From NCBI GenBank assembly GCA_016931995.1, contig JAFGDS010000031.1, forward strand, positions 1 to 32,172: 32,172 bases of DNA. The letters run 5' to 3'. Origin of the DNA: Pirellulales bacterium (GTDB taxonomy: Bacteria; Planctomycetota; Planctomycetia; Pirellulales; Thermoguttaceae). The position numbers and the translations under genes are program-made. The notes beneath the pieces are model-generated. The model saw only the letters and a program-made list of their open reading frames with translations. It did not search any database and was not told the DNA's origin. Shown piece after piece: positions 3,468 through 25,753 of the stretch (the stretch's first letter is position 1; each line of letters starts with the position of its first letter).

Positions 3468-6026
3468 TTAAAGTACTAGAGCGGCCCGCAGTAGGGCGAA
3501 GAGAACGTCGTACCGGCCGCGCTGCGCGGCGTCGGGCTGCGGCTGCCAGGAGCCGCCCATCCGGTAGTCGTCAAACGACGGGCCGAACCCGATCGCCGTG
3601 ACGCGGCCCTTGCCCAGCGACGTGGTCGCCGCGACGGTCGTGTTCCCGATCCGCGCCACGGCCGATCCGCCGGACACCGCGCAGCCGACCTCGTCCGGCA
3701 GCCTCAACGTCGAATCGGCCAGGACCACTTCGCCCCGAACGTATTGCTCCGGCTCGATGGCCAGCCCAAAGGGCCAAAGCAAACTGTTGGCCGTCGAGCG
3801 GTAGTTGCCCGGCGAATCGACCACCAGCACCCGCCCACCCCGCGCCACGTACTCGACGAGCCGCCGGCGGTACTCCTCGCTCACCGAGCCGGTGGGATGC
3901 AGCACGACGAGGGCGTCGCCGGCAAAGGCGTCCGCGCCGGCTCTCCGCGACGTGAAACATCCCAGCCGCGGAATCCACTGCTCGAAAAGCCCGAATCCCT
4001 CGCCCTGGCCTTGGATGTAGGCGCCCTTGGAAAGCGGCGCGTCGGACACGGTTCGGTCGATCGCGACGTCCACGGCGTCGCGCCGGGGCACGGGCGCCGG
4101 CATGGCCGCGCGCGCCGATGCCCCGGCGCCCAGGCACGCCGCGGCCCAGCCCGCTAGAAAACACGCGGCCAAAAGCGCCCCGGCGCGGCTGCCGCGGGCC
4201 GTCCACAAACCAAACGCCGCCAGCGCCGCGCCGGCCAGCCCCAGCGGAATCGTCAGCAGCCGCCAACGGCCCGGCTCGTCCCAATAGCTTCGGCGGTTGA
4301 GCCAGTCGAGCATCCCGATGGCGAGTTCCGACTTGCCCGGCTGAAAGAGCGAGAAATTCGAGAAGATGGTCGAGTCGGTGAACGCCAGAACGCGGCCCGC
4401 CCCATGCCGCGCGGCCCAAAGCTGAATGAACGCGCCGGCGCGGAGCGTGGCCCGGTATTCGGCGGGTGGATGGTAGTTTTCGTGCTCGTATTGCGAGGGC
4501 AAGCTCCACAGCCCGATGTCCCAGAGCGCCGCCCGGCCGCTCGAACGGCCCGGATCGATCGAACAGGAAACGGCAAAATCCATCCGTTCCACGTATTGCA
4601 CGGCCGGATGCGGTACGAGGGCGGGCCGATACGCCTGCTCGTAGGGCGTGCCCACGCAGAACAACAGGTCGTCGCGGAAGGCGAAGCCGAACTGCCGGGC
4701 GACGTCGTTGATGTACGCGGTCGAGTTGAAGACGTTCGTGTGGTCGCCGATCAGAAGAAGCCCTCCGCCGTTGCGGACGTACTGCGCGATGGCGGCCACT
4801 TCCTCGGGCAGGAAACGCGCCGTGGGCGTTTTGACCACGAGGACGTCGCAGCCGCGCAGCGTCTCGGCGTCGATCGCGTCCGACTCCACAAGCCGCGACA
4901 TGGAGAAAAACCGCGAGGCGTAGTCGTACAGCACCCGATACGTGTAGCTCGAGGGCTCGCCATAGTGGTCCTCATCGTAAGCGGCGTCCGTGGGCTCCCA
5001 CTCGCTGTGCCGCTCGACGAACGTCACGCGGCCTTCCCGAGGGCTCCCGACCGGGTGCCACGCCCAAAGCCACGTCGGCACGGCCGCGCCCAACGCGACG
5101 AGCCCGCAGCAAAGGGCCAGCCGACGGCGCGGGAATGCCCTTCCGGCGGCCGGCGGTTCCACGCGCGATTCCACCGGCGGCACGCTCACCAGACGAACGG
5201 CCAAGAGCGTCGGCCCGGCCAGAAGCATCGCCGGCAGCCACCAACTAAACGTCTGATTCATCACGCTCGGGGGCAAACTCGCGTCGGCCCGCGCGACGCG
5301 ATGAACATACAATCCCAAGATCATTCCCAGTCGCACGGGCAGCCACGCGGCGACGACGAGAAGCAACGTGCCCGCCGCGCGGCCCCAATCCGACAGACGC
5401 CGCCGCGGCGGCGCGTCTCGAAACACCAAGCCGAGCATCGCCAGGCCGCCGGCGGCAAACAGCAACGTGGCTGGATCGATCAAAAGGTCCCACGTCGCGC
5501 CCAGCCGGTGCACGTCGTCGCCGGCGCGAATCGCCAGCGTGCTGCCCTCGACGCTGGCCTCCACGCCGAGGGCTCGAGCCACCACGCCCATCAAGTGCGC
5601 CAACGGCGAGGGCAGTTCGTGCGATCGGGCGGTCCAACATCCATAGGCCCATGCAACGGGCGCCTGCGCCAAAAGCGTCCAACCCGCCATCGAAGCGCCG
5701 CCGGCCAACGCCCTCGGCCATCGCCGCGGGATCGGCGTCCAATGCAGCAACAACCCGGCGAGCAGCAGAAGCGGCGCCGCCCGATACGGCCACGGCATCA
5801 CCCAGACCGGTAAAATCCATATCGCCGCCGCCACGAGGCATTCGCCCTGGGGACTGTCCCAATTTTCGTTCAGCGAAAATGGGACCGTCCCCTTATTCGT
5901 CGCCCACAACACGACCCCCGCCGCCAGACTTGCCGCCCACAACCACGCGCTGGCCGGGCGATAGCATCCCAGCCCGGCCGTCCACGACGCCGACACCAGC
6001 GCAAGGGCCAGCCACGCGCGGATCAT
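3468..6026 (-). CDS. Large membrane protein: exosortase-like core without cysteine plus two DUF4350/GATase-like domains (downstream paralogue)
   Basis: The product is 852 aa. The ATG at 6026 overlaps the stop of the upstream gene (ATGA), and GGAG lies 8 nt before it, so the start is well supported. Residues 1-280 are several membrane helices. Within them, about 141-245, the layout resembles exosortase/archaeosortase: RALGVEASVEGSTLAIRAGD, a helix, RRRLSDWG, a helix, then LPVRLGMIL near the family's final Arg motif. At the expected active-site Cys the sequence reads GATWDLLID. Residues about 330-600 form a Rossmann-like GATase1/DUF4350-type domain (CDVLVVKTPTARFLPEE, VRNGGGLLLIGDHT). A further membrane region and a second such domain (DALVVLHPTGSVSEEYRR, VARGGRVLVVDSPGN) complete it. 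Residues 44-62 come from an inserted palindrome. The two-domain layout is seen directly; the exosortase relationship is inference. No function is assigned. Confidence 0.8.
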   Translation of the reverse strand: MIRAWLALALVSASWTAGLGCYRPASAWLWAASLAAGVVLWATNKGTVPFSLNENWDSPQGECLVAAAIWILPVWVMPWPYRAAPLLLLAGLLLHWTPIPRRWPRALAGGASMAGWTLLAQAPVAWAYGCWTARSHELPSPLAHLMGVVARALGVEASVEGSTLAIRAGDDVHRLGATWDLLIDPATLLFAAGGLAMLGLVFRDAPPRRRLSDWGRAAGTLLLVVAAWLPVRLGMILGLYVHRVARADASLPPSVMNQTFSWWLPAMLLAGPTLLAVRLVSVPPVESRVEPPAAGRAFPRRRLALCCGLVALGAAVPTWLWAWHPVGSPREGRVTFVERHSEWEPTDAAYDEDHYGEPSSYTYRVLYDYASRFFSMSRLVESDAIDAETLRGCDVLVVKTPTARFLPEEVAAIAQYVRNGGGLLLIGDHTNVFNSTAYINDVARQFGFAFRDDLLFCVGTPYEQAYRPALVPHPAVQYVERMDFAVSCSIDPGRSSGRAALWDIGLWSLPSQYEHENYHPPAEYRATLRAGAFIQLWAARHGAGRVLAFTDSTIFSNFSLFQPGKSELAIGMLDWLNRRSYWDEPGRWRLLTIPLGLAGAALAAFGLWTARGSRAGALLAACFLAGWAAACLGAGASARAAMPAPVPRRDAVDVAIDRTVSDAPLSKGAYIQGQGEGFGLFEQWIPRLGCFTSRRAGADAFAGDALVVLHPTGSVSEEYRRRLVEYVARGGRVLVVDSPGNYRSTANSLLWPFGLAIEPEQYVRGEVVLADSTLRLPDEVGCAVSGGSAVARIGNTTVAATTSLGKGRVTAIGFGPSFDDYRMGGSWQPQPDAAQRGRYDVLFALLRAALVL
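5849..5892. repeat. Palindromic REP/MITE-like element inside a coding sequence
   Basis: The left arm at 5849-5868 (GGGGACTGTCCCAATTTTCG) and right arm at 5874-5892 (CGAAAATGGGACCGTCCCC) are complementary apart from one mismatch and one extra A, with a 5-nt loop TTCAG. Each arm also has its own dyad GGGAC-N-GTCCC. It is read in frame in the membrane protein as NKGTVPFSLNENWDSPQGE, a hydrophilic insert between hydrophobic helices. Confidence 0.85.
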
Positions 6027-8842
6027 GGCGCGGTCTCCTTCGAGCTGGTCGGCTGCTTCGTCGGCGCGGACGCCCGTTTCACGTCGGGTGGGACCCATTC
6101 GTCGCCGCCCGACACGCGCGAGAGCAGCCAACGCCAGAAGTAGGCGTTCTCGTCCGCGCCGTCGACCATCTGCCCGTCGAAGTAGCCCATATTGTAGTTC
6201 AACGCGAAGCCGCCGTCGCCGATCACCACGGCCCAACCCCGCTCGGCCTGCTCGCCGACCGGCCGCGCGGCCGCGAGCGGCACGTTATCGTAGCCGCGGA
6301 CGAGCACCTGCGCGTCTTGCCCGCGGGGTTCGACCGGCCAGCCGTGGAAGATCCACACCCGGGCGAGATAGTCCCCCGCGCCGTAATCGGCCGCGTTGAG
6401 ATACGCCGTGGCGAAGCGGCCGAAGTTGTTGGGGAACCGTCCGACCGGGGCGGGCTCCGGCGAAGGGTCGCCCGGCGATTGCGGGATCGGCCGGACGCGG
6501 ATGCCCAGATCGGCGAACAGCGCGTCGTGCGGCCCGGCCTCGGTCGCGCCGGCGCAGAGAACGAACACGCCGCCGCGCTCCATCCATTGCCGCAGCCACG
6601 CGCGCTCCGACGGAGAGAACGACCCCGCGGGCGCCACCGCCACGACGGTCGCCGCCGCGTCCAGCCGCGTGGCCGACCAGTCGTACAGCGCCAAAGGCAC
6701 GCGGCCGGCGCGCATCAACGCCATGGCAAGGCCCTCGATCCCTTCGTTGCTCCACGGCCGGCGGCAAATCGGCTCCTGGTGCGACAGGTCGATGTAGGCC
6801 AGCGGCGCGTGCGAGCCCGGCGGTCCCTGGGGCAACACGGGCGGCAGCAACCCGTTGACGCCCCGCGCGCCTGCCAGTCCCAGGGCGATCGCCAGCGACA
6901 CGGCGACCGCGGCCGCGGCGTCCAACGACGCGACCAGCGCCGCCGCAAGGGCCAGGCAGACGATCAAGCCCAGGGCTTGTCGCCACCACGTTTGCGGATT
7001 GGCCGGCCGTCGGGCCAGATACCCGAGCAGACGACCGACAAACGGATGGGAGTAGACCGTGGTCAGATTGGCGAGGCAAGCGTCGTCGGCCAGGGCCACG
7101 ACGACGCCGCGTCCCAGCGGCCGCTCGGCCATGAGCACGAGATCGCCCAGCCGTTCGCCGGGGTCGATTTGGCCGTCCGCGCCGGCGGCCGCGTCGCTGC
7201 CCGGCTCGGCGTGACCCCACGTGCCCATGAGGATCGGCCGGGCCGGCCATCGCGCCCGGATCGACGAGCTTTGCCGCAGGCCGAAACACTCGATGCGGTC
7301 CGGCAAACCCGCCGTGGCCGGATGCGGCAGCGCCACAAGCGCGTCGTCCCACTGGGCCGCAGCGGGCAGGGCCACGTCGTAGTTGATCGCCATGCCCACG
7401 GGCGAGAGCACGTCGTCCACGGCCCCGCGCGGCGACGCGCCAAACACCGCCGGACCCGCCACGACCAGCAGCGACCCACCCTCGCGGACAAAGGCCTCGA
7501 TCCGCTCCAACTGGCCCGGCGTCCAGGGTTCGGTCGGATGCAGAAGCAAGAGCACGTCGGCCTTTTCGAGATCCGCCTGGGCCAGTTCGGGCGAGACGAC
7601 CATCTCTCCGCCGAAGCTCGACACCAGCGCCGGCAACGTGCCGTACAAGCCCGCCGCCTCGATCCCGAAATTGTCGTAGCCCGGCCGGGCGAAATCGAGA
7701 AACCCTCGGGCGTAGACGACGATCCGCGCCCCGCCCAGGCTCGACGGTCCGCCGGCGATGGCCAGGACGCCCACCGCGACGAACGCCAACGCGGCGGCCG
7801 CGCCAAGCCGGCGCGGGGCAACGCGCCCGACCGACCGACCGTCGGCCGGCGCCCATCGCCCCCACCGAAACATGCACCCGGCGACGATCGCGTGAAGACA
7901 CGCCGCCAGGATCGGCAGATTCCAGGGGATCGCGGCGCGGAGGGTTTCGGAAAGCAGCCACTCGGGTGGGCGATACTCCGAGGCATCGAGCGACGGCGGC
8001 GCGGGCGGATCCGGCAGAAACGCGACCAGATCGTTGGCTCGCGCGACGACCGCGAGATACGCAAGATGAGCCGCCACGATGGCCCCGGCGGCCCATACGG
8101 CGCGCTTCCAGCGCGGCGTCAAGGTCCATCGCAGCCAGCCGATCCAGATCACCGCCATGGGCACGAGGAAATCCAGCCCGGCGAAGCTCGCGCCTACGTT
8201 CAGCGGGCGGCCCGCGATCCATCCGGCAATGTCGCCCATGCCCTCGCCTAGCGCGCCGGCCAGCGAGACCGCCGTCGGGATCGTCGCGACGGCCAATCGC
8301 CAAATTGCGAGCACGCCCGCGGCCACGCCCACCAAGACCAATAGCCGCGCGTCGGCGGCTGGGAGCCCCTCGCGCTCGGGCGGCGCGGCGGGCGAAGCGT
8401 CGGACGTTTCACGGCGCGGTGGAGTCCGAGGCGAACCCCGGCCTTGGCTCGCCAGACGGATGCCTTCCACTCGATTTGGGGCGTGCCGTCCCGCCGCATC
8501 GCGACGCCCCATGCCCGACAACACGGCGATAAAGACGGCCACGGCCGCCGCGTCGGCCGCGCTTTGCCCTGGCGCGAAAAGCGACAGACCCACCACGAGC
8601 GCCGCGGCGGCGGCGAGCCAGGCGAGCCTGCGGCCCCTCGGACGCGCCAGCGCGCCGGCCGCGCCCAAAAGGATCCACACCACGGCGTGGCGCAGCGGCG
8701 CGGCCACCAATCCGATCGAACCCGCCGCGGTCCACGCGGCCATCAAACCCAACGCGCCCGCGGCAACCGCCGCGCGCGTTGGTCCCGCAACGGGCGGTTC
8801 CGCGGCGGCGTTTTGGTCGGTTGCAGCCGAAGAGACGGACAT
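6023..8842 (-). CDS. Large membrane protein: exosortase-like core without cysteine plus two DUF4350/GATase-like domains (upstream paralogue)
   Basis: The product is 939 aa and first in the two-gene operon. The ATG at 8842 is the only good Met; its ribosome binding site is poor. Residues 25-110 are membrane helices, followed by a polar Pro/Arg linker (about 112-160). The second membrane block contains about residues 190-270, read as GDIAGWIAGRPLNVGASFAGLDF, a helix, TPRWKRAVW, a helix, then AVVAR. This matches the order of the exosortase/archaeosortase core (Cys-Ser-Gly-Leu motif, Arg, Arg), but SFAGL stands where CSGL is expected. Two soluble GATase/DUF4350-like domains follow: one with KADVLLLLHPTEPWTPGQLE and VREGGSLLVVAGP, the other with IDLSHQEPICRRPW and WMERGGVFVLCAG. 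A helical hairpin (about LGLIVCLALAAALVASLDAA) separates them. It is the paralogue of the next gene. Function is unknown; a membrane-bound sensor or assembly role is only a guess. Confidence 0.8.
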   Translation of the reverse strand: MSVSSAATDQNAAAEPPVAGPTRAAVAAGALGLMAAWTAAGSIGLVAAPLRHAVVWILLGAAGALARPRGRRLAWLAAAAALVVGLSLFAPGQSAADAAAVAVFIAVLSGMGRRDAAGRHAPNRVEGIRLASQGRGSPRTPPRRETSDASPAAPPEREGLPAADARLLVLVGVAAGVLAIWRLAVATIPTAVSLAGALGEGMGDIAGWIAGRPLNVGASFAGLDFLVPMAVIWIGWLRWTLTPRWKRAVWAAGAIVAAHLAYLAVVARANDLVAFLPDPPAPPSLDASEYRPPEWLLSETLRAAIPWNLPILAACLHAIVAGCMFRWGRWAPADGRSVGRVAPRRLGAAAALAFVAVGVLAIAGGPSSLGGARIVVYARGFLDFARPGYDNFGIEAAGLYGTLPALVSSFGGEMVVSPELAQADLEKADVLLLLHPTEPWTPGQLERIEAFVREGGSLLVVAGPAVFGASPRGAVDDVLSPVGMAINYDVALPAAAQWDDALVALPHPATAGLPDRIECFGLRQSSSIRARWPARPILMGTWGHAEPGSDAAAGADGQIDPGERLGDLVLMAERPLGRGVVVALADDACLANLTTVYSHPFVGRLLGYLARRPANPQTWWRQALGLIVCLALAAALVASLDAAAAVAVSLAIALGLAGARGVNGLLPPVLPQGPPGSHAPLAYIDLSHQEPICRRPWSNEGIEGLAMALMRAGRVPLALYDWSATRLDAAATVVAVAPAGSFSPSERAWLRQWMERGGVFVLCAGATEAGPHDALFADLGIRVRPIPQSPGDPSPEPAPVGRFPNNFGRFATAYLNAADYGAGDYLARVWIFHGWPVEPRGQDAQVLVRGYDNVPLAAARPVGEQAERGWAVVIGDGGFALNYNMGYFDGQMVDGADENAYFWRWLLSRVSGGDEWVPPDVKRASAPTKQPTSSKETAP

Positions 8843-9055
8843 CTCGCACTCGCAAAGCGGTCAGTGCTATGTCGCTGAGTTTGCGGGAAACGAAGACTGG
8901 CTCCTTGGCGAAAACGAGTGTGGCGTGGACGGAAACGTCGCCGCCGCCGCGCCTGTCCCCGTTTTCCGCCCTTGGATCGAACTGTTTAGTATGTCGCTGG
9001 ACACACCCCAGGTCAAGCCTTGCACGACGCGGCGGCGGAATGGACAATAGGGAAC

Positions 9056-9652
9056 ATGGCCATTCTCAAGGCGGCAATTCTGCTGTTTCTCGTGATCGAC
9101 CCGATGGGCAACGTGCCGCTGTTTGTCAGCTTCCTGTCGGGCATTCCGCCGCGGCGCGCCCGCTGGATCGCCGTTCGCGAACTCCTCATCGCCCTGGCCG
9201 TTCTTGTCTTCTTCCTCGTCGTGGGCGACGTGCTGCTCAATCTGCTCCAAGTCGGCGAGCCGGCGCTGGGAATCGCCGGAGGGATCATCTTGTTTTTGAT
9301 CGCCATCAAGATGATTTTCGCCAGCGCGAAGGAGATTTTCCCCCACAACCTGGACGGCGAGCCGTTTGTCGTCCCCCTGGCGATTCCGTTCGTGGCGGGC
9401 CCCTCGGCCATGGCAACGGTGCTCTTGCTGCGAGCCGGCGCCCCGTCGCAATGGCTCGAATTGCTCGTGGCCCTGGTGGCCGCGTGGCTTGTTTCGGGCG
9501 CGATTCTCGTGGCGGCCAGCCCCTTGAGCCGGTTCCTCGGCGCCCGCGGGCTCAATGCGATGGAGCGCCTGATGGGTCTGCTCCTGACCACCGTGGCCGT
9601 CCAGATGTTCTTGACAGGCGTGAAGGAGTTTTTCGCCGTCGCCCCGCGTTGA
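9056..9652 (+). CDS. MarC/YchE/YhgN-family integral membrane protein
   Basis: The 198-aa product has six predicted membrane helices and the family hallmarks: LFLVIDPMGNVPLF near the N-terminus, GGIILFLIAIKMIF in the third helix, VPLAIPFVAGPSAM as the second half-repeat motif, and AMERLMGLLLTTVAVQMF at the end. Length matches the family (about 200 aa). The ATG at 9056 places the first helix right at the N-terminus; an upstream in-frame TTG at 9020 adds 12 polar residues and is less likely. MarC proteins are of unknown transport function despite the old multiple-antibiotic-resistance name. The 3' end contains the probable promoter of the following tRNA. Confidence 0.9.
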   Translation: MAILKAAILLFLVIDPMGNVPLFVSFLSGIPPRRARWIAVRELLIALAVLVFFLVVGDVLLNLLQVGEPALGIAGGIILFLIAIKMIFASAKEIFPHNLDGEPFVVPLAIPFVAGPSAMATVLLLRAGAPSQWLELLVALVAAWLVSGAILVAASPLSRFLGARGLNAMERLMGLLLTTVAVQMFLTGVKEFFAVAPR

Positions 9653-9875: not shown

Positions 9876-11837
9876 TTACGACGTCTCCATCCCAAGCTGC
9901 CGCATCTTGCGGTAAAGGTTCGAGCGGTGCAGGCCGAGGCGGTCGGCGGCTTGGCTGACGTTGCCGCCGGCGAGATGGACGGCGCGGTGGATGTAGTCGA
10001 TCTGAAACCGCGCGGTCGCCTCGGCCAGCGACTCGCCGCCGGCGGGCTCGATCTCCGGCCCGCCGCGGGGCGAGAGGATGAACGCCAGCTCCGCGGCGTC
10101 AATCTCGGCGTCCGTCGAGAGATACGCGAGCCGCTCCATCAGGTTGCGCAGCTCGCGGACGTTGCCCGGCCAGGCGTGCGATTGAAGCCGCGCAAGCGCC
10201 GCAGCCGAGAACCGCGGGGCGGGCCGCCGCGCCCGGCGGGAGAACTCGCCGAGGAAGTGCTCGGCCAACGGCACGACGTCCTCCGGCCGATCGCGCAAGG
10301 GCGGGATCTCGATCGCCACCACGTTGAGCCGGAAGTACAGATCCTCGCGAAACCGCTTCTGGCGAACCATGGCGGCAAGATCCTGATTGGTCGCGGCGAC
10401 GATCCGCGCGTCGGTGCGGATGGGCGTCGATCCGCCCACGCGCACCAGCGTCTTTTCCTCAATCACGCGGAGCAGCTTCGCCTGCGCGGCCAGCGACAGG
10501 TCGCCGATCTCGTCGAGGAAGAGCGTGCCCAGGTCGGCCAGCTCGAACTTGCCGGCACGGGCCTCGCGGGCGTCGGTAAACGCGCCCTTCTCGTGCCCGA
10601 ACAGCTCGCTTTCGGCCAGCGTGTCGGGAATGGCCGCGCAGTTGACGGCCACCAACGGCTTGTCGCGCCGCCGGCTCAGGTAGTGGATCGACTGGGCGAC
10701 GATTTCCTTGCCCGTCCCGTTCTCGCCCAGCACCAGCACGGCCAGATCGGTATCGGCCACGCGGCGGGTGATCGAGCGGATGGCCTCGATCGCAGGGCTT
10801 CGGCCCACCAGACGCACGGACTCGGCGGCCTGATCGGCGATCCGACGGTTCACGCCGAGCAGGCGCTGGCGATCTTGCGCGTTTTCCAGGGCGATCGACG
10901 CGTGCGCGGCCAGCTCGACCAAGGCCGCCTCGTCCTCCTCGGTGAATCGGCCCGCGTGCTTGTTGACCAGCTCGAACGCGCCGAACAGCTCGCCCGCGCT
11001 ACCCCGCAGCGGAACGCACAGGAGCGTGCGCGTCTGGTAGCCAAGACGGGCGTCCACCTGGCGGTCGATCCGCTCGGGCTCGGCCGCGGCGTCCACCCGC
11101 AGCGGCCGGCCCGTCCGAATCACCTGGCCCACCACGCCGGCGTCGTCCGGCACGCGGAGCTCGCCGCCCTCGACGCCCAGAGCCGGTCGGGCCACCAGTG
11201 ATCGCGCGGGGCGATCCCAAAGGAAGATGCTCGCGCGATCGGCCTCCAACAGCCGCGTGGCCGCCTTGGCCATGTCGGCCAGCAGGGATTCCACGTCCTG
11301 GTGGCCGTGCCACTGCTGGGCGATCTGGACGATGGCCTCGAGCCGCCGGACCCGTCGGGCCAGTTCGCTTTGCCGCCGATCGCGCTGGCGGACGGCGCCC
11401 AAGGCATCGCCCAGCACGGGCGCAAGGACCGCGACGGCGCTGGCCCGCCGGGTGGCCGTTGGTGCATTGCCCGCCAGGACGAGCACCTCGGACGTTTCGG
11501 CCCGCTCGGCGAGCGGGGCCCCCGCCCAGGCATCGTTGCTGCACGGCGCCGCCCGATCGAGCGTCTCGGCCAGGAGCCCGCCGGGCAGCGTGCGGGCTGG
11601 GCCCCACTCGACCTGCACCACCCATCGGCCCTCCTCCGCCCGAACGACCGCCGCGTAGTCGCTTCCCGCCGCGACGGCCACGCGGCGCAAGGCCCCGGCA
11701 AGGAAGCTGGCCGCGTCCTCTTCTCGACTGGCCTGCCGCAGGATCTCCGCCCCGACCTCGGCCCATCGAGGCTGGGCCAGAAGTGCCCGGATGACGGCGC
11801 TGCCGGTCTCCAGGGGTTCAGGCGAGGAATGGCTCAT
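9876..11837 (-). CDS. Sigma-54-dependent transcriptional activator (GAF - AAA+ - Fis HTH)
   Basis: The 653-aa product is a bacterial enhancer-binding protein that uses ATP to remodel sigma-54 RNA polymerase. GGAAGGG lies 7-8 nt before the ATG. The N-terminal third is a degenerate GAF-like region, a short Arg-rich coiled coil (about 155-175) and a well-formed GAF domain (about 175-320; ATRLLEADRASIFLWD, LLCVPLRGSAGELFGAFELVNK). The AAA+ domain has Walker A GENGTGKE (371-378), the sigma-54 contact loop GAFTDA (418-423; canonical GAFTGA), Walker B GTLFLDEIGDL and SHAWPGNVRELRN. The C-terminal Fis-type helix-turn-helix reads GGNVSQAADRLGLHRSNLYRKM. There is no receiver domain, so the signal is probably a small ligand or redox cue sensed by GAF. 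No -24/-12 promoter was recognised nearby, so targets are unknown. Confidence 0.93.
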   Translation of the reverse strand: MSHSSPEPLETGSAVIRALLAQPRWAEVGAEILRQASREEDAASFLAGALRRVAVAAGSDYAAVVRAEEGRWVVQVEWGPARTLPGGLLAETLDRAAPCSNDAWAGAPLAERAETSEVLVLAGNAPTATRRASAVAVLAPVLGDALGAVRQRDRRQSELARRVRRLEAIVQIAQQWHGHQDVESLLADMAKAATRLLEADRASIFLWDRPARSLVARPALGVEGGELRVPDDAGVVGQVIRTGRPLRVDAAAEPERIDRQVDARLGYQTRTLLCVPLRGSAGELFGAFELVNKHAGRFTEEDEAALVELAAHASIALENAQDRQRLLGVNRRIADQAAESVRLVGRSPAIEAIRSITRRVADTDLAVLVLGENGTGKEIVAQSIHYLSRRRDKPLVAVNCAAIPDTLAESELFGHEKGAFTDAREARAGKFELADLGTLFLDEIGDLSLAAQAKLLRVIEEKTLVRVGGSTPIRTDARIVAATNQDLAAMVRQKRFREDLYFRLNVVAIEIPPLRDRPEDVVPLAEHFLGEFSRRARRPAPRFSAAALARLQSHAWPGNVRELRNLMERLAYLSTDAEIDAAELAFILSPRGGPEIEPAGGESLAEATARFQIDYIHRAVHLAGGNVSQAADRLGLHRSNLYRKMRQLGMETS

Positions 11838-17224: not shown

Positions 17225-18157
17225 ATGGAGACGTTGCGGATTCTGGTTGCCTCGATCGCGACGTTCGGAGGCGGCCTCTTGACCGCGTCGGCCGAACCGA
17301 TCACGCATTACGTGGTCTTCGGCGACAGCCTCTCGGACGGCGGCAACACGTATGACTTGACCGCCGGCGCCGTTCCGGAGTCGCCGCCCTATTGGCAAGG
17401 CCGATACTCCAACGGGCCGACGTGGATTGAAGTACGCGCGGGGCTGTTCGGCCTGCCGGCGCCCACGCCCAGTCGCCTCGGCGGCACGAACTACGCCCAC
17501 GGCGGCGCGGAGACCGGCCACGGGCAGTCGTGGACCGGCACGGGAGCGTCAAACATGCTCGAGCAGGGGGATGAATACTTGGCTGCCCACGCGCCAACCG
17601 GCTCCGAGCAGTTTGTCATCTGGGGCGGAGCCAACGACATCTTCGCGAGCATTCTGTCCGGCGAAATGCCGGACTCGGCCGTCTCGGTGGCCAACCTCTC
17701 CGAGCTGATCACTTCCTTGGCCCAAAGCGGGGGCACGCAGTTCCTGGTATTGAACCTGCCGCCGTTGGGCGAGATTCCCCTCTTCCGCCAATTCGGCGAG
17801 GACGTGACGATTCCGATGAACGCGGTCTCCGCGGAATTCAACGCATTGCTGTCCGACAAGGTCCAACAACTGCGGTCCGAGCAGGGATTGTCCATCTCGT
17901 ATATCGACGTATACGCGCTGGTCACGGAGGTCGTGAACGATCCCGCGTCGTTCGGATTCGCCAACGTCACCGATTCGGCGTTCAACGAGGCCAGTGGAAC
18001 GGTCGTGCCCAATCCGGACGAGTATGCCTTTTGGGACGGCGTGCACCCAACGGCCCGCCTCCACGCGATGCTGGCCAGCGTACCCGAGCCCAAGGCGATT
18101 GTCCTTCTCGCAACCGCGGTGGTCGGCGTGCTCCCATTCGCGTGGCGACGCCGGTGA
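17225..18157 (+). CDS. Secreted SGNH/GDSL hydrolase with PEP-CTERM sorting signal
   Basis: The 310-aa product starts at ATG 17225 with GGAGG 9 nt upstream. It has an N-terminal signal peptide (about 1-23, ending in ASA) and an SGNH esterase/lipase core: block I FGDSLSDGGN with nucleophile S35, GGTNYAHGGA (block II Gly region), WGGANDIF (block III Asn), and DGVHPT with D271 and H274 (block V). The C-terminus is VPEP (286-289), a hydrophobic helix and RRR, the PEP-CTERM signal recognised by exosortases for surface sorting. It is probably an extracytoplasmic esterase attached to or released at the envelope. No canonical exosortase is encoded in this window. Confidence 0.93.
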   Translation: METLRILVASIATFGGGLLTASAEPITHYVVFGDSLSDGGNTYDLTAGAVPESPPYWQGRYSNGPTWIEVRAGLFGLPAPTPSRLGGTNYAHGGAETGHGQSWTGTGASNMLEQGDEYLAAHAPTGSEQFVIWGGANDIFASILSGEMPDSAVSVANLSELITSLAQSGGTQFLVLNLPPLGEIPLFRQFGEDVTIPMNAVSAEFNALLSDKVQQLRSEQGLSISYIDVYALVTEVVNDPASFGFANVTDSAFNEASGTVVPNPDEYAFWDGVHPTARLHAMLASVPEPKAIVLLATAVVGVLPFAWRRR

Positions 18158-22510: not shown

Positions 22511-22948
22511 GGGTTGAACGCGGCCGAGGGTCGAGGGCAAGCCAGGGGCAGCACTCCCGAGCATAATGGACGGCAAGGCGGACCCCAAGGCCACGTGGGA
22601 TGCCACTGCTGGCTTGTCCAGCAGTGTTTCCTTAAGAGAGCTTGTCTTTTCACCGCTGGACAAGTCAGCAGTGGCGCCCTTGCCCATGGACACATCCTTC
22701 GGTTCGCTCGACGCGTGCCCTCCGAAAGGGGGCTTTGCGGGTTGTTTGATACCAAACTTCCGTGGGGGTTCTCGCCGAGCGTGGGGCGGTCGCCTATAGT
22801 AAAGGTTTGGCGTCGCTCCGGGGCCCGCCGGGCGTGGGTGAACCCCGGGGCCGCGGGCTCCGTATTGCGTAGAAGGTCTTCTCGTTCCTTCACGATGCCC
22901 TTCGGGCCGCTGACAACCCACCATTCATCGCGTTTGCGAGGCGATTCC
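22511..22948. other. Intergenic region between divergent folC and the ABC transporter operon
   Basis: The 438 bp carry a two-armed CACTGCTGG palindrome (22602-22675). Open frames through it are repeat translations. TATAGT at 22795-22800 would be a good -10 for the ABC operon but no matching -35 is seen. I see no gene. Confidence 0.5.
22602..22675. repeat. Two-armed palindromic repeat with core CACTGCTGG/CCAGCAGTG
   Basis: GCCACTGCTGGCTTGTCCAG starts the left arm (22602-22622). Its reverse complement, with one mismatch, forms the right arm (22655-22675). The left arm is also self-complementary (CACTGCTGG, loop CTTGT, CCAGCAGTG), so it is a composite of a hairpin core present twice in opposite orientation. 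I recall the same string as very common in planctomycete genomes. Confidence 0.85.
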
Positions 22949-23839
22949 ATGCCGGATGAGGTCATTATCGAAACGCGGAACCTGACCAAGGTATACCGCG
23001 ATTTCTGGGGGCGCAAGAAGGTCCAAGCTCTCAAGGCGCTGGATCTCGAGGTCCGCCGGGGCGAGATCTTTGGCCTTTTGGGTCCCAACGGGTCGGGTAA
23101 GACCACGACGATCAAGCTCTTGCTGGGCCTTTTGTTTCCCACCAGCGGCCAGGCGCTGGTGTTTAACCGCGACGCCACGGAGGTGACCAAGAACGAGCGG
23201 ATCGGCTACCTGCCCGAGGAGTCGTACCTCTACAAGTTCCTCACGGCCGAGGAGACGCTCGATTTCTACGGCCGGCTGTTCAAGATGCCTCGCCGCGTGC
23301 GGCGGCAGCGGTGCGCGGAGCTGATCGAGCAGGTGGGATTGGCGCGGGCGAAGCGGCGACAGCTTCGCGAGTATTCCAAGGGCATGACCCGCCGGATTGG
23401 CCTGGCCCAGGCGCTAATCAACGATCCGGAATTGATCGTGCTGGACGAGCCGACCACGGGCCTGGACCCGCTGGGCACGCGGGACATGAAGCAGATGATT
23501 ATCGACCTGCGCGCCCAGGGCAAAACGATCGTCATGTGTAGCCACCGGCTCGACGACGTGCAGGACGTGTGCGACCGGATCGCGATTCTTTACGAGGGCG
23601 AGCTGAAGGAGCTGGGCCGGGTGGACGGCCTGCTGAAGGTCCGCGACGTGACCGAGATCCACGCCCGCCAACTGAGCCCAAAAGCCCAGGACGAGATCCG
23701 CGCCGTGATCGCCCGCGAAGGCGGCGAACTGATTTCCATGGACAACCCGACGACAACCCTGGAGCGTCTCTTCCTGGACATTATCGAGGAGAGCCAGGCG
23801 CATCCGGGCCGTCGCGTGCGAGGGGGACGAGACGAATAA
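22949..23839 (+). CDS. ABC transporter ATP-binding protein
   Basis: The 296-aa ATPase drives the permease encoded 3 bp downstream. The ATG at 22949 has GAGG 8 nt upstream. It contains Walker [10 protein letters not shown] (K51), the Q-loop region [10 protein letters not shown], the signature [15 protein letters not shown] (a YSKGM variant of LSGGQ, usual in ABC-2/NatA-type exporters), Walker [16 protein letters not shown] and H-loop CSHRLDDVQ. The C-terminal tail ([18 protein letters not shown]) is the accessory domain of such exporters. As first gene of a tight four-gene run, it probably acts with an ABC-2-type permease at the cytoplasmic membrane. Confidence 0.97.
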
Positions 23840-23842
23840 GCC

Positions 23843-25753
23843 ATGGTCATAGAAACCGAACTGCTCCCGTTTCATCTATGGATCCGCAGCGCCCCGCTGG
23901 ACTGGCTGAAGGTGGCTGGCGCGCTGGCGCTGGCTTTCCTTCTCGTGGGGTATCTCGTGGCCGCGCTGCGGCACGGGCCGGTGGTCGCCCTGGAGGTGAC
24001 GGGCAAGACGCTGGTCGGATGGCTTGAGGACCTCGTGTTCCTTTCGCCTCGGCGGTTGTGGGCTTTGATGTGGCTGTCGATCCGCGACGCGCTGCGACGG
24101 CGGATCGTGGTGGTCTTCGCGCTTTTTCTCGTGGTGCTCATGTTCGCCGGATGGTTTCTGGATCCCGGCAACGATCATCCCGTGCGGCTGTATCTGAGCT
24201 TCGTGCTCACCGCGACGAGCTATCTGACGCTGCTTCTGGTGCTGTTTTTGAGCGTGTTCAGCATTCCCGGCGACCTGCGCAGCAAGACGTTGCACACGGT
24301 GGTGACGAAGCCGGTCCGGCCGAGCGAGGTCGTCCTGGGGCGCATGCTCGGGTTCATCGCGATTGGGACGTTCCTTTTGCTCGTGATGGGCGCGATCAGC
24401 TACGTGTTCGTCGTGCGGGGACTGGCCCACACGCACGAGGTCCTGCCGCGGGCGCTGGCGACCCTGGAAGGACCCGCCGGAGCGCCGGCCGACGCGGCGA
24501 CCTTGGTGGGCAAAAGCGAACCCGCCCATAACCATCGGCACGACGTGGTGATCCATGCCCAAGGCCACGGACGGCTCGAAACGGCGCGAGGGCACCGGCA
24601 CCGCGTGGTTCGCCAGGGCGAGGGCAAGGACGCCACGTACGTCGTGGGCGAGCCGGAGGGCATGTTCGTCGCCCGCGTGCCCCTGTACGGAAAGCTCCGC
24701 TTCGTCGATCGCGATCGCCGCGCGGCGGAAAAAGGCATCAACGTCGGCGACGAGTGGGCCTATCGCAGCTACGTTGAAGGGGGGACTCTGGGCGCGGCCA
24801 TCTGGACGTTCTCGGGCATCGTGCCGGAGCGGTTCCCCGACAAGCTTCCGTTGGAGATGACCATCTCGGTCTATCGCTCGGAAAAAGGCGTAATCACGGA
24901 AGGGATCCCCGGCGTGCTCCTGCTGCGCAATCCGAAAACGGGGCTCACGGTCGAGGCGAAGGTGTTCACCGCCCGCGAGTTCTCGACCGACGTCCAGATC
25001 ATCCAACGAAAAATCACGCCCAACAATGTCTACGCGCTTAAAGAGGAGAAGCTCGAGGACGGCAAGCTCCGCTACGTCCGCGAGGACCTCGCCGCCGGCC
25101 AGGCGGTCAAGGAGCGTTACGATCTCTTCGAAGACCTGACGAACGAGGGCCGGATTGAGATCTGGATGCAGTGCCTGGCGCCGCGGCAATACCTCGGCGC
25201 CGCGCAGGCCGACCTGTACCTTCGCGCAAGCGACGCGCCGTTCTGGTGGAACTTCACCAAGGGATATCTGGGCATCTGGATGCAGATGGTGCTTCTGGTG
25301 GCCTTCGGCGTGACGCTCAGCACGTTTCTGGGCGGACCGGTGGCGCTGATCGCCGCGGTCGGCGTGCTGGTGGGCGGACTGTTCCGCGAGTTCATGGTGC
25401 AAGTGGCGACGGGCACGGTCTACAGCGCGAAGCCGGGCGACGTGAACATGGGCGGCGGCCCGATCGAATCGATGATCCGGATGGCCACGCAGCAGAACGT
25501 CGTCACGGACATGCCCGAAGGGCTGCGGACCACCGTGGCGCAGACGATCGATCCGGTGCTTGAGCGCGGCCTTTGGTTGATGGCCCAGATCCTGCCCGAT
25601 CTCGGCCGGTTCAGCGCGGCGGACTACGTCGCGTATGGTTTCAACGTGTCGGGCGATTGGCTTTGCGAGGGGGGGCTGGCGACGCTGGGGTTCTTCGTCT
25701 TGTTGTCTCTGGCCAGTTGTCTATTTATGAGAATTCGCGAGGTGGCCAAATGA
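23843..25753 (+). CDS. ABC-2-type transporter permease with histidine-rich extracytoplasmic loop
   Basis: The 636-aa product has an N-terminal helix, then LMWLSIRDALRRRIVVVFALFLVVL, SFVLTATSYLTLLLVLFLSVF and GFIAIGTFLLLVMGAISYVF, with the ABC-2 family segment TLHTVVTKPVRPSEVVLGR between them. A large soluble region (about 200-460) follows, then a second helix group (LGIWMQMVLLVAFGVTLSTF and the next) and a final helix at the end. The soluble domain begins with a histidine cluster (AHTHEV about 199; HNHRHDVVIHAQGHGR and RGHRHRVV, about 228-255). ABC-2 permeases are normally shorter and lack this loop. The gene overlaps the next by ATGA. Substrate is unknown; the histidines suggest a metal-handling or metal-sensing step. 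Confidence 0.9.
   Translation: MVIETELLPFHLWIRSAPLDWLKVAGALALAFLLVGYLVAALRHGPVVALEVTGKTLVGWLEDLVFLSPRRLWALMWLSIRDALRRRIVVVFALFLVVLMFAGWFLDPGNDHPVRLYLSFVLTATSYLTLLLVLFLSVFSIPGDLRSKTLHTVVTKPVRPSEVVLGRMLGFIAIGTFLLLVMGAISYVFVVRGLAHTHEVLPRALATLEGPAGAPADAATLVGKSEPAHNHRHDVVIHAQGHGRLETARGHRHRVVRQGEGKDATYVVGEPEGMFVARVPLYGKLRFVDRDRRAAEKGINVGDEWAYRSYVEGGTLGAAIWTFSGIVPERFPDKLPLEMTISVYRSEKGVITEGIPGVLLLRNPKTGLTVEAKVFTAREFSTDVQIIQRKITPNNVYALKEEKLEDGKLRYVREDLAAGQAVKERYDLFEDLTNEGRIEIWMQCLAPRQYLGAAQADLYLRASDAPFWWNFTKGYLGIWMQMVLLVAFGVTLSTFLGGPVALIAAVGVLVGGLFREFMVQVATGTVYSAKPGDVNMGGGPIESMIRMATQQNVVTDMPEGLRTTVAQTIDPVLERGLWLMAQILPDLGRFSAADYVAYGFNVSGDWLCEGGLATLGFFVLLSLASCLFMRIREVAK

Follow-up and report, generated by a model that had tools for sequence, protein, structure and literature searches.

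What would a pair of large membrane proteins do if the core of each were built like an exosortase and had lost the catalytic cysteine? Exosortases are known as cysteine enzymes, and this question is raised by a stretch of 32,172 nucleotides from a Pirellulales bacterium (contig JAFGDS010000031.1 of assembly GCA_016931995.1; hereinafter, the window), which carries two adjoining genes for such proteins, here denoted P1 and P2. The original prediction, made from the sequence of the window, held that both look like degenerate exosortases fused to paired GATase-like domains and that they could recognize sorting signals without cleaving them. The analysis described here outlines a paired module that is present in bacteria and archaea, lacks the exosortase cysteine and contains a cluster of invariant residues in one of the soluble domains of P2.

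The two genes had been predicted to encode proteins of one architecture (a membrane core, a GATase-like domain, a helical hairpin and a second GATase-like domain), and Pfam matches together with confident AlphaFold2 models bear this out. Both proteins pass the Pfam cut-offs for ABC_transp_aux in the middle of the protein (35.9 bits for P1 and 51.6 bits for P2, cut-off 34.7) and for DUF4350 at the C-terminal end (61.4 and 53.6 bits, respectively, cut-off 30.4). The models, obtained from alignments of 65 P1 and 76 P2 sequences, have a predicted local distance difference test (pLDDT) score of 89.0 and a predicted template modelling (pTM) score of 0.90 for P1, and of 94.5 and 0.94 for P2, where the hairpin consists of two helices (585-609 and 616-641). 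Structure searches with these models, which hardly probed the core and, for the soluble part, gave GIFT-like chains, matched the first soluble domain (GIFT1) to IFT52 (5fmr_A; VIA-align Z 23.6, root-mean-square deviation 2.5 and 210 aligned residues for P2; Z 22.4, 2.6 and 209 for P1) and, for both proteins, to OST48 chains (Z 17-20). The GldG equivalog model TIGR03521, with a cut-off of 389.85 bits, was not reached by either protein (P2, 18.5 bits, E 0.0006; P1, 9.6 bits). The stop codon of P1 and the start codon of P2 share an ATGA, an arrangement that is likely to provide for translational coupling; a P2 of 922 residues starting from an upstream TTG, as given in the list of open reading frames, was considered less likely than the ATG that overlaps the P1 stop. 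Because the MarC-like gene upstream of the pair (9020-9652) sits on the opposite strand, the operon in the window apparently consists of P1 and P2 alone.

The pair behaves as a unit. Among 244 genomes of the phylum, strong relatives of P2, defined by scores of about 78 bits or more, were detected in 12 (G000, G017, G031, G038, G043, G047, G095, G105, G175, G186, G190 and G235); at the default threshold, 31 genomes match P2, the remainder of the matches being short and mostly limited to the GATase-like part. P1 adjoins P2 in 11 of the 12 genomes, and in G038 the two genes are found on separate short contigs. A scan of named genomes with a single peptide of P2 GIFT1 (residues 549-558) yielded 80 of 115 confirmed loci; judging by title, the 80 belong to Planctomycetota, Verrucomicrobiota, Lentisphaerae, Thermoplasmatota archaea and a few other taxa, with binning errors in metagenome-assembled genomes possible, and the closest named relatives of P2 come from Pirellulales and other Planctomycetota assemblies. 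P1 and P2 occur together on one strand at 87 loci from bacteria and archaea, a count in which L197 and L200 apparently duplicate L062 and L064, and two pairs are present in some genomes. The gaps between the two open frames are mostly negative or shorter than 130 bases. Nine of the 11 loci with P2 only end within about 170 bases of P2, which leaves two true exceptions in the available DNA, L068 and L159, with 1.2 kb and 5 kb of room, respectively; both loci with P1 only (L032 and L069) are truncated on the P2 side. At one locus (L188:6150-8684), P2 is broken over two open frames, possibly by a frameshift or an assembly error. Across 73 loci, the between-locus identities of P1 and P2 are strongly correlated (r = 0.93, whereas 500 label permutations gave no value above 0.21); together with the 87 joint same-strand loci, this correlation places the association of the two genes beyond chance. 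The window proteins show 19-22% (P1) and 23-26% (P2) identity to their archaeal counterparts at eight loci, and the presence of the pair in both bacteria and Thermoplasmatota implies that it is either old or has moved between the domains of life.

Sequence conservation within the pair is concentrated in GIFT1 of P2. In the alignment of 92 P2 rows, W343, Y361, E409, H429, D453, R545, D551 and T553 are present in every row, K399, T430, N440, S552 and S556 in 91, and C488 in 90. Of the 31 P2 positions conserved in at least 97% of these rows, 22 belong to GIFT1, and so do 21 of the 23 invariant columns of the 76-row alignment, the other two being R232 in the core and G327 in the linker. The polar positions that reach the 97% level are R232, W343, Y361, K399, E409, H429, T430, N440, D453, C488, R545, D551, S552, T553, S556 and R687 in P2, compared with only D567, R711, W835 and D876 in P1. 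Because the named loci were picked by the peptide 549-558, the conservation of this segment is partly built in; nevertheless, W343, Y361, E409, H429, D453, R545, D551, T553 and R232 are found in all 16 rows that were not picked in this way (C488 in 15 of the 16), and the 12-row P2 alignment agrees with this peptide-independent conservation. In the P2 model, H429/T430, C488 and D551-T553 come after the strands 422-426, 482-484 and 544-549, respectively; flavodoxin-like folds usually hold their site after strands. Given that the invariants concentrate in P2 GIFT1 and that few polar ones are found in P1, the candidate working site of the module, catalytic or otherwise, is most likely located in this domain, and P1 appears from the alignments to be the less constrained partner.

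The relationship of the cores to exosortases, which the original prediction had deduced from the order of motifs, was addressed primarily by profile-profile comparison. Exosortases are described as enzymes with three motifs, C-x-G, N-x-x-R and H-x-x-x-G, which together hold six invariant residues; the cysteine, arginine and histidine are predicted to lie close to the outer face, where consecutive helices end (PMC1569441). Profiles of 12 members each, compared with 21 exosortases, scored 30.7 for P2 and 25.7 for P1, against 15.0-20.7 for reversed controls. With 92 P2 and 80 P1 members, the scores were 35.5 and 35.3, respectively, compared with 17.5 and 23.7 for reversed controls and, over 150 block-shuffled controls, with a mean of 22.7 and a maximum of 32.7 for P2 and a mean of 20.0 and a maximum of 35.2 for P1. 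Against 39 exosortases, P1 scored 37.0 and P2 36.3, above the maxima of 100 block-shuffled controls each (30.1 and 31.8) and above the reversed controls (27.9 and 21.9). The trimmed P1 core retained a score of 31.6 (maximum of 100 shuffles, 25.5). Six real membrane families used as decoys scored at most 17.2 with P1 and 16.1 with P2, and with 43 individual membrane proteins the highest scores were 16.6 and 21.5, respectively. The P1 and P2 cores scored 52.2 against each other in the run with 92 and 80 members; this score falls to 19.9 when both are trimmed.

The register of these alignments is largely consistent. The exosortase ACSGI falls on SFAGL of P1 in three comparisons, SFAGL falls on TWDLL of P2 in two, and TWDLL is placed on ACSGI, W179 taking the position of the cysteine, in the 92/80-member and the 39-exosortase runs; in both of these runs and in the 12-member run, R232 of P2 falls on the exosortase arginine. 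In the P2 model, an amphipathic helix, strands, the short motif helix, another helix, an arginine-rich loop and a long helix with R232 succeed one another in the order of the exosortase motifs.

Several observations weigh against a relationship between the cores and exosortases. Neither P1 nor P2 matches PF09721 or an NCBIfam exosortase model above the cut-off, and for 75 P2 and 72 P1 cores no exosortase family is among the Pfam families listed (25 of 47 and 25 of 44, respectively); among the NCBIfam families listed for the cores, the exosortase matches are stray and sub-threshold (XrtC, E 0.0052, one member; XrtD, E 0.093, one member; exo_archaeo, best E 3.1, two members). The best shuffle of the 92/80-member run almost equals the P1 score (35.2 and 35.3), and the trimmed P2 core scores 24.8, a value reached by 6 of 100 shuffles. 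The membrane decoys fall short of the exosortase profile in number and in size. The best probabilities reached with HHalign are 41-45%, and separate hhalign runs gave 20%, 11% and 10%, one of these runs spanning only 33 columns and ending before the motif; the smaller, 12-member P2 alignment places the motif two columns off. A sequence search for a solved exosortase in the PDB gave one chance match (E 1.5) with a single query and none with a 15-member profile. Taken together, the profile scores above controls and the agreeing register argue that the P1 and P2 cores are probably remote relatives of exosortases, homology being likely but unproven. The relationship originally proposed is thus supported in part: by profile-profile comparison, where the 39-exosortase scores exceed shuffled, reversed and membrane controls, but not by ordinary family searches, by the trimmed P2 core or by the low hhalign probabilities.

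The two motifs are found where the original prediction had quoted them, and, of the 172 rows, 171 lack a cysteine in the aligned column (80 of 80 for P1 and 91 of 92 for P2). In P1, this column contains phenylalanine in 57 of 80 rows, tyrosine in 6 and cysteine in none; in P2, it contains tryptophan in 83 of 92 rows and cysteine in one (L226), with two further rows that have a cysteine one column earlier (178). With mostly phenylalanine or tryptophan at the cysteine site, thiol transpeptidation of the exosortase type is impossible there. The glycine of C-x-G is retained in P1 (74 of 80 rows). The arginine that had been expected at the end of the next helix is present in P2 (R232), where the asparagine of N-x-x-R is absent, but not in P1, which has no conserved arginine near this helix end and shows a conserved Y262-L263 instead. 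No conserved histidine-glycine pair corresponding to H-x-x-x-G follows R232 of P2 (H242, conserved in 58%, is much nearer) or Y262 of P1. The loop between the helices is rich in arginine (PRWKRA and PPRRR), which, under the positive-inside rule, suggests that the motif end faces outside.

If the cores bind sorting signals, the pair might be expected to track the PEP-CTERM system, and the original prediction had proposed a test of such co-occurrence. The exosortase, rather than the PEP-CTERM proteins themselves, was used as the marker. In the phylum set, exosortases are found in 5 of 12 genomes with the pair and in 92 of 232 others (p = 1.0). The conclusion that there is no link, drawn from these counts alone, was revised: in the window's family, exosortases are present in 32 of 34 pair genomes (with the fragmentary G469 taken as a pair genome) compared with 34 of 63 others (p = 2.7e-5), and the link is weaker by genus (22 of 24 and 8 of 12, p = 0.15). 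Among named pair genomes, for which 50 of the 80 loci were covered, 44 of 50 have an exosortase (39 of 41 non-archaeal and 5 of 9 archaeal, split by title), and four of the five archaeal matches are at E 4e-5 to 6e-6. There are pair genomes without an exosortase and eight genera of the family with an exosortase and without the pair; since each occurs without the other in some genomes, the pair does not depend on exosortases. The pair thus tends to occur in exosortase lineages without depending on the exosortase, and its link to PEP-CTERM is weak; the co-occurrence is seen by genome within the family, weakens by genus and is not seen in the phylum counts.

The window itself does encode a PEP-CTERM protein, as originally noted; in NCBIfam, this protein matches only floc_PepA, below the cut-off (E 0.0079). 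The two exosortases of the window genome (5.43 Mb, 99% complete) are on other contigs. Near the pair, a sigma-54 activator (9876-11837, minus strand) scores below the cut-off of the PEP-CTERM-box response regulator model (343.5 of 502.6 bits), and NtrC-like genes are found near the pair at some related loci. Further along the window (22514-25753, plus strand), an ATP-binding cassette (ABC) ATPase (22514-23839), GldA-like below the cut-off, is followed by a membrane protein of 636 residues without an NCBIfam match.

Many of the loci appear to encode secreted proteins next to the pair. At 28 of the 73 loci that could be scored, P1 is preceded on its own strand, at a distance of no more than about 320 bases, by a gene for a cysteine-rich protein made of T-x-C-P-x-x-x heptads (hereinafter, TxCP); ten loci have too little room to be scored, and L197, L200 and L222-L226 were excluded beforehand. 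About 62% of 1174 units have K, R or Q as their second residue, several of the proteins have a signal-like N-terminus by eye, and two 70-residue pieces scanned against Pfam gave no match above the cut-off. In the phylum set, TxCP repeats at E 1e-10 were detected in 4 of 244 genomes, namely, 3 of 12 pair genomes and 1 of 232 others (p = 0.0004): in G038 and G047 the repeat gene is directly upstream of P1, in the pair genome G043 the pair and the repeat genes are on different contigs, and in G074 the 3.6-kb contig stops just past the repeat gene. In the window's family, the TxCP profile at E 1e-3 matches 17 of 97 genomes. The four strongest matches (E 3e-18 or better) all belong to genomes that carry the pair, next to which the repeat is encoded; the other 13, in genomes without the pair, are weaker (best 7e-14). 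Inspection of 10 loci, which included six of the 13 weak genomes with one locus each, revealed 23-77 heptads at the four strong loci and no run at the six weak ones (L304-L309). When the strong matches alone are counted, they occur in 4 of 34 pair genomes and in 0 of 63 others (p = 0.013).

Other results speak against TxCP proteins as the client of the pair throughout its range. The possibility of a TxCP gene at every locus was dropped, with 45 of the 73 scorable loci, like that of the window, lacking one upstream, and the TxCP profile has no match in the window genome. The G043 repeat genes lie apart from the pair, and, scored by profile only, the contrast within the family lacks significance at looser thresholds (4 of 34 compared with 3 of 63 at 1e-10, p = 0.24; 4 of 34 compared with 13 of 63 at 1e-3, p = 0.40). 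The linkage of the pair to the genes for TxCP and other secreted-looking proteins falls short of proof of a client relation. In Thermoplasmatota, one to three paralogous secreted-looking proteins are encoded downstream of the pair (L198:11838-14180, L206:11398-13775 and L213:11316-13605), with a PLGLSTSS-like stretch followed by a C-terminal hydrophobic segment. Directly upstream of P1 at three other loci (L065:595-6966, L066:12181-18726 and L072:12333-18752) are genes for proteins of more than 2100 residues that are RHS-like by eye and have a C-terminal hydrophobic helix. Both groups were set back as general clients, being lineage-limited. A literature search over titles and abstract openings, with partial coverage, found no description of such a pair or of TxCP proteins.

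Table 1. Positions of the main features in the window and of TxCP-repeat genes at related loci
Feature	Position	Strand	Remarks
P1	6023-8842	-	939 residues; membrane core, GIFT1, transmembrane hairpin, GIFT2/DUF4350
P1 parts			AlphaFold2 residues: core helices 23-361; GIFT1 ~371-617; transmembrane hairpin 619-664; GIFT2/DUF4350 ~681-910
P2	3468-6026	-	852 residues; ATG at 6026, stop 3468-3470
P2 parts			AlphaFold2 residues: core helices 2-322; GIFT1 331-581; transmembrane hairpin 585-641; GIFT2/DUF4350 ~653-831
ATGA overlap	6023..6026	-	P1 stop / P2 start; junction CGCGCCATGATC
P1 SFAGLDF, residues 219-225	8168..8188	-	Aligned with exosortase ACSGI; Cys site F220, Gly of C-x-G G222
P2 GATWDLL, residues 176-182	5481..5501	-	Aligned with P1 motif and exosortase motif; Cys site W179
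P2 R232	5331..5333	-	Aligned with the N-x-x-R arginine of exosortases; 92/92 rows
P2 GIFT1 (331-581)	4284..5036	-	Probable functional site, from row conservation
GDSL-type lipase-like protein with PEP-CTERM tail	17225-18157	+	Ends VPEPKAIVLLATAVVGVLPFAWRRR, read by eye
TxCP-repeat genes directly upstream of P1	L168:4125-6020, L173:4217-6163, L061:5994-7523		Also at 25 further loci

We propose, with slightly less than even confidence, that P1 and P2 constitute a two-subunit membrane module with degenerate exosortase cores and that this module deals with secreted proteins at the outer face. The two proteins would act as coupled partners, most likely assembled into a heteromer in the cytoplasmic membrane, in which each core, without its nucleophilic cysteine, probably retains a binding or docking role. 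The two GIFT/GATase-like domains of each protein, of the GldG-IFT52-OST48 type, would be outside, on the face of the supposed exosortase active residues, and the work would most likely be done by the invariant polar cluster of P2 GIFT1. The module most likely would receive, anchor or mature secreted proteins once these have crossed the membrane, the client in many lineages being the TxCP-repeat protein encoded just upstream; in its details, such a client-handling role is rather doubtful. A more specific version, in which the chemistry has shifted to P2 GIFT1, with C488, H429 and D551 as the candidate catalytic set, the core has become a membrane receptor and the clients include the giant secreted TxCP-heptad protein of the same operon, appears improbable; if true, it would amount to a sorting or anchoring route of an undescribed kind, common to bacteria and archaea.

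The cores might instead be generic polytopic anchors of an envelope complex of the GldG/DUF4350 type, involved in secretion or remodelling, with a convergent order of motifs. The lack of a direct exosortase family match beyond stray sub-threshold ones, the modest HHalign probabilities and the failure of the trimmed P2 core to rise above shuffles are what one would expect of such anchors, and other DUF4350 proteins have been assigned by prediction to a complex for secretion or remodelling (PMC5898192). However, two independently built core profiles beat real membrane decoys and shuffles in the same register, and an arginine occupies the exosortase arginine column in 92 of 92 rows, and we regard generic anchoring as rather unlikely.

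Two further possibilities assign the pair to a known system, and both seem to us quite improbable. The degenerate sortase fold might bind PEP-CTERM signals uncut and thereby aid or regulate true exosortases, consistent with the excess of exosortases among pair genomes of the family, their frequency in named pair genomes and the presence of a PEP-CTERM protein and a sigma-54 regulator in the window; but this excess is not seen in the phylum and is weaker by genus, the pair and exosortases each occur without the other, and only 5 of 9 archaeal genomes have an exosortase match, four of these being weak. Binding of signals without cleavage is possible but is not favoured, because the invariants are mostly in P2 GIFT1. 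Alternatively, P1 and P2 might be GldG-like accessory subunits of an ABC transporter, by analogy with GldG, which goes with GldA and GldF. The ABC_transp_aux match, the sub-threshold GldG match of P2 and the GldA-like ATPase of the window fit this role, but the ABC genes of the window are about 13.7 kb from the pair, no recurrent ABC gene was recognized by eye in the inspected neighbour clusters, most of which are unannotated, and no membrane core of the P1/P2 type is known in GldG.

How, then, does the two-subunit module compare with the known systems that it resembles? With exosortases and archaeosortases (PF09721; EpsH, Xrt and ArtA), P1 and P2 share a polytopic core, profile-level similarity, the order of helix, strands, motif, helix and arginine helix, and single motif residues (the C-x-G glycine in P1 and the N-x-x-R arginine in P2); unlike these enzymes, they lack the cysteine, a conserved histidine motif and the N-x-x-R asparagine, come as a two-gene pair with two large GIFT domains in each protein, and are not tied to the presence of an exosortase. 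With GldG, IFT52, OST48 and the DUF4350/ABC_transp_aux proteins, they share the Pfam matches and the GIFT1 fold (IFT52, Z 22-24; OST48, Z 17-20), but in P1 and P2 a single protein carries the GIFT domain in duplicate, attached to an exosortase-like core, GIFT1 of P2 is dense in invariant polar residues, and the scores stay below the TIGR03521 cut-off. A family-wide, paired, cysteine-less form would, if the relationship holds, represent a second career for the exosortase fold, as with other pseudoenzymes. A further parallel is offered by arCOG01314 (DUF4350), which is predicted to form part of an archaeal complex for secretion or remodelling together with a von Willebrand factor type A (vWA) protein and a MoxR-type ATPase (PMC5898192); it resembles our pair in the DUF4350-type outside domain, the envelope setting and the secreted proteins nearby, but has a single C-terminal transmembrane helix and sits with vWA/AAA+ genes, whereas P1 and P2 have a polytopic core and form a tandem pair with TxCP-repeat or other secreted-looking neighbours. 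The invariant cluster in P2 GIFT1 and the linkage to TxCP-repeat genes are new here, the former supplying concrete residues to change and the latter a concrete, testable client. The family merits a name of its own, one that reflects a membrane module made of two partners, with exosortase-like cores that lack the cysteine and with GIFT domains in duplicate.

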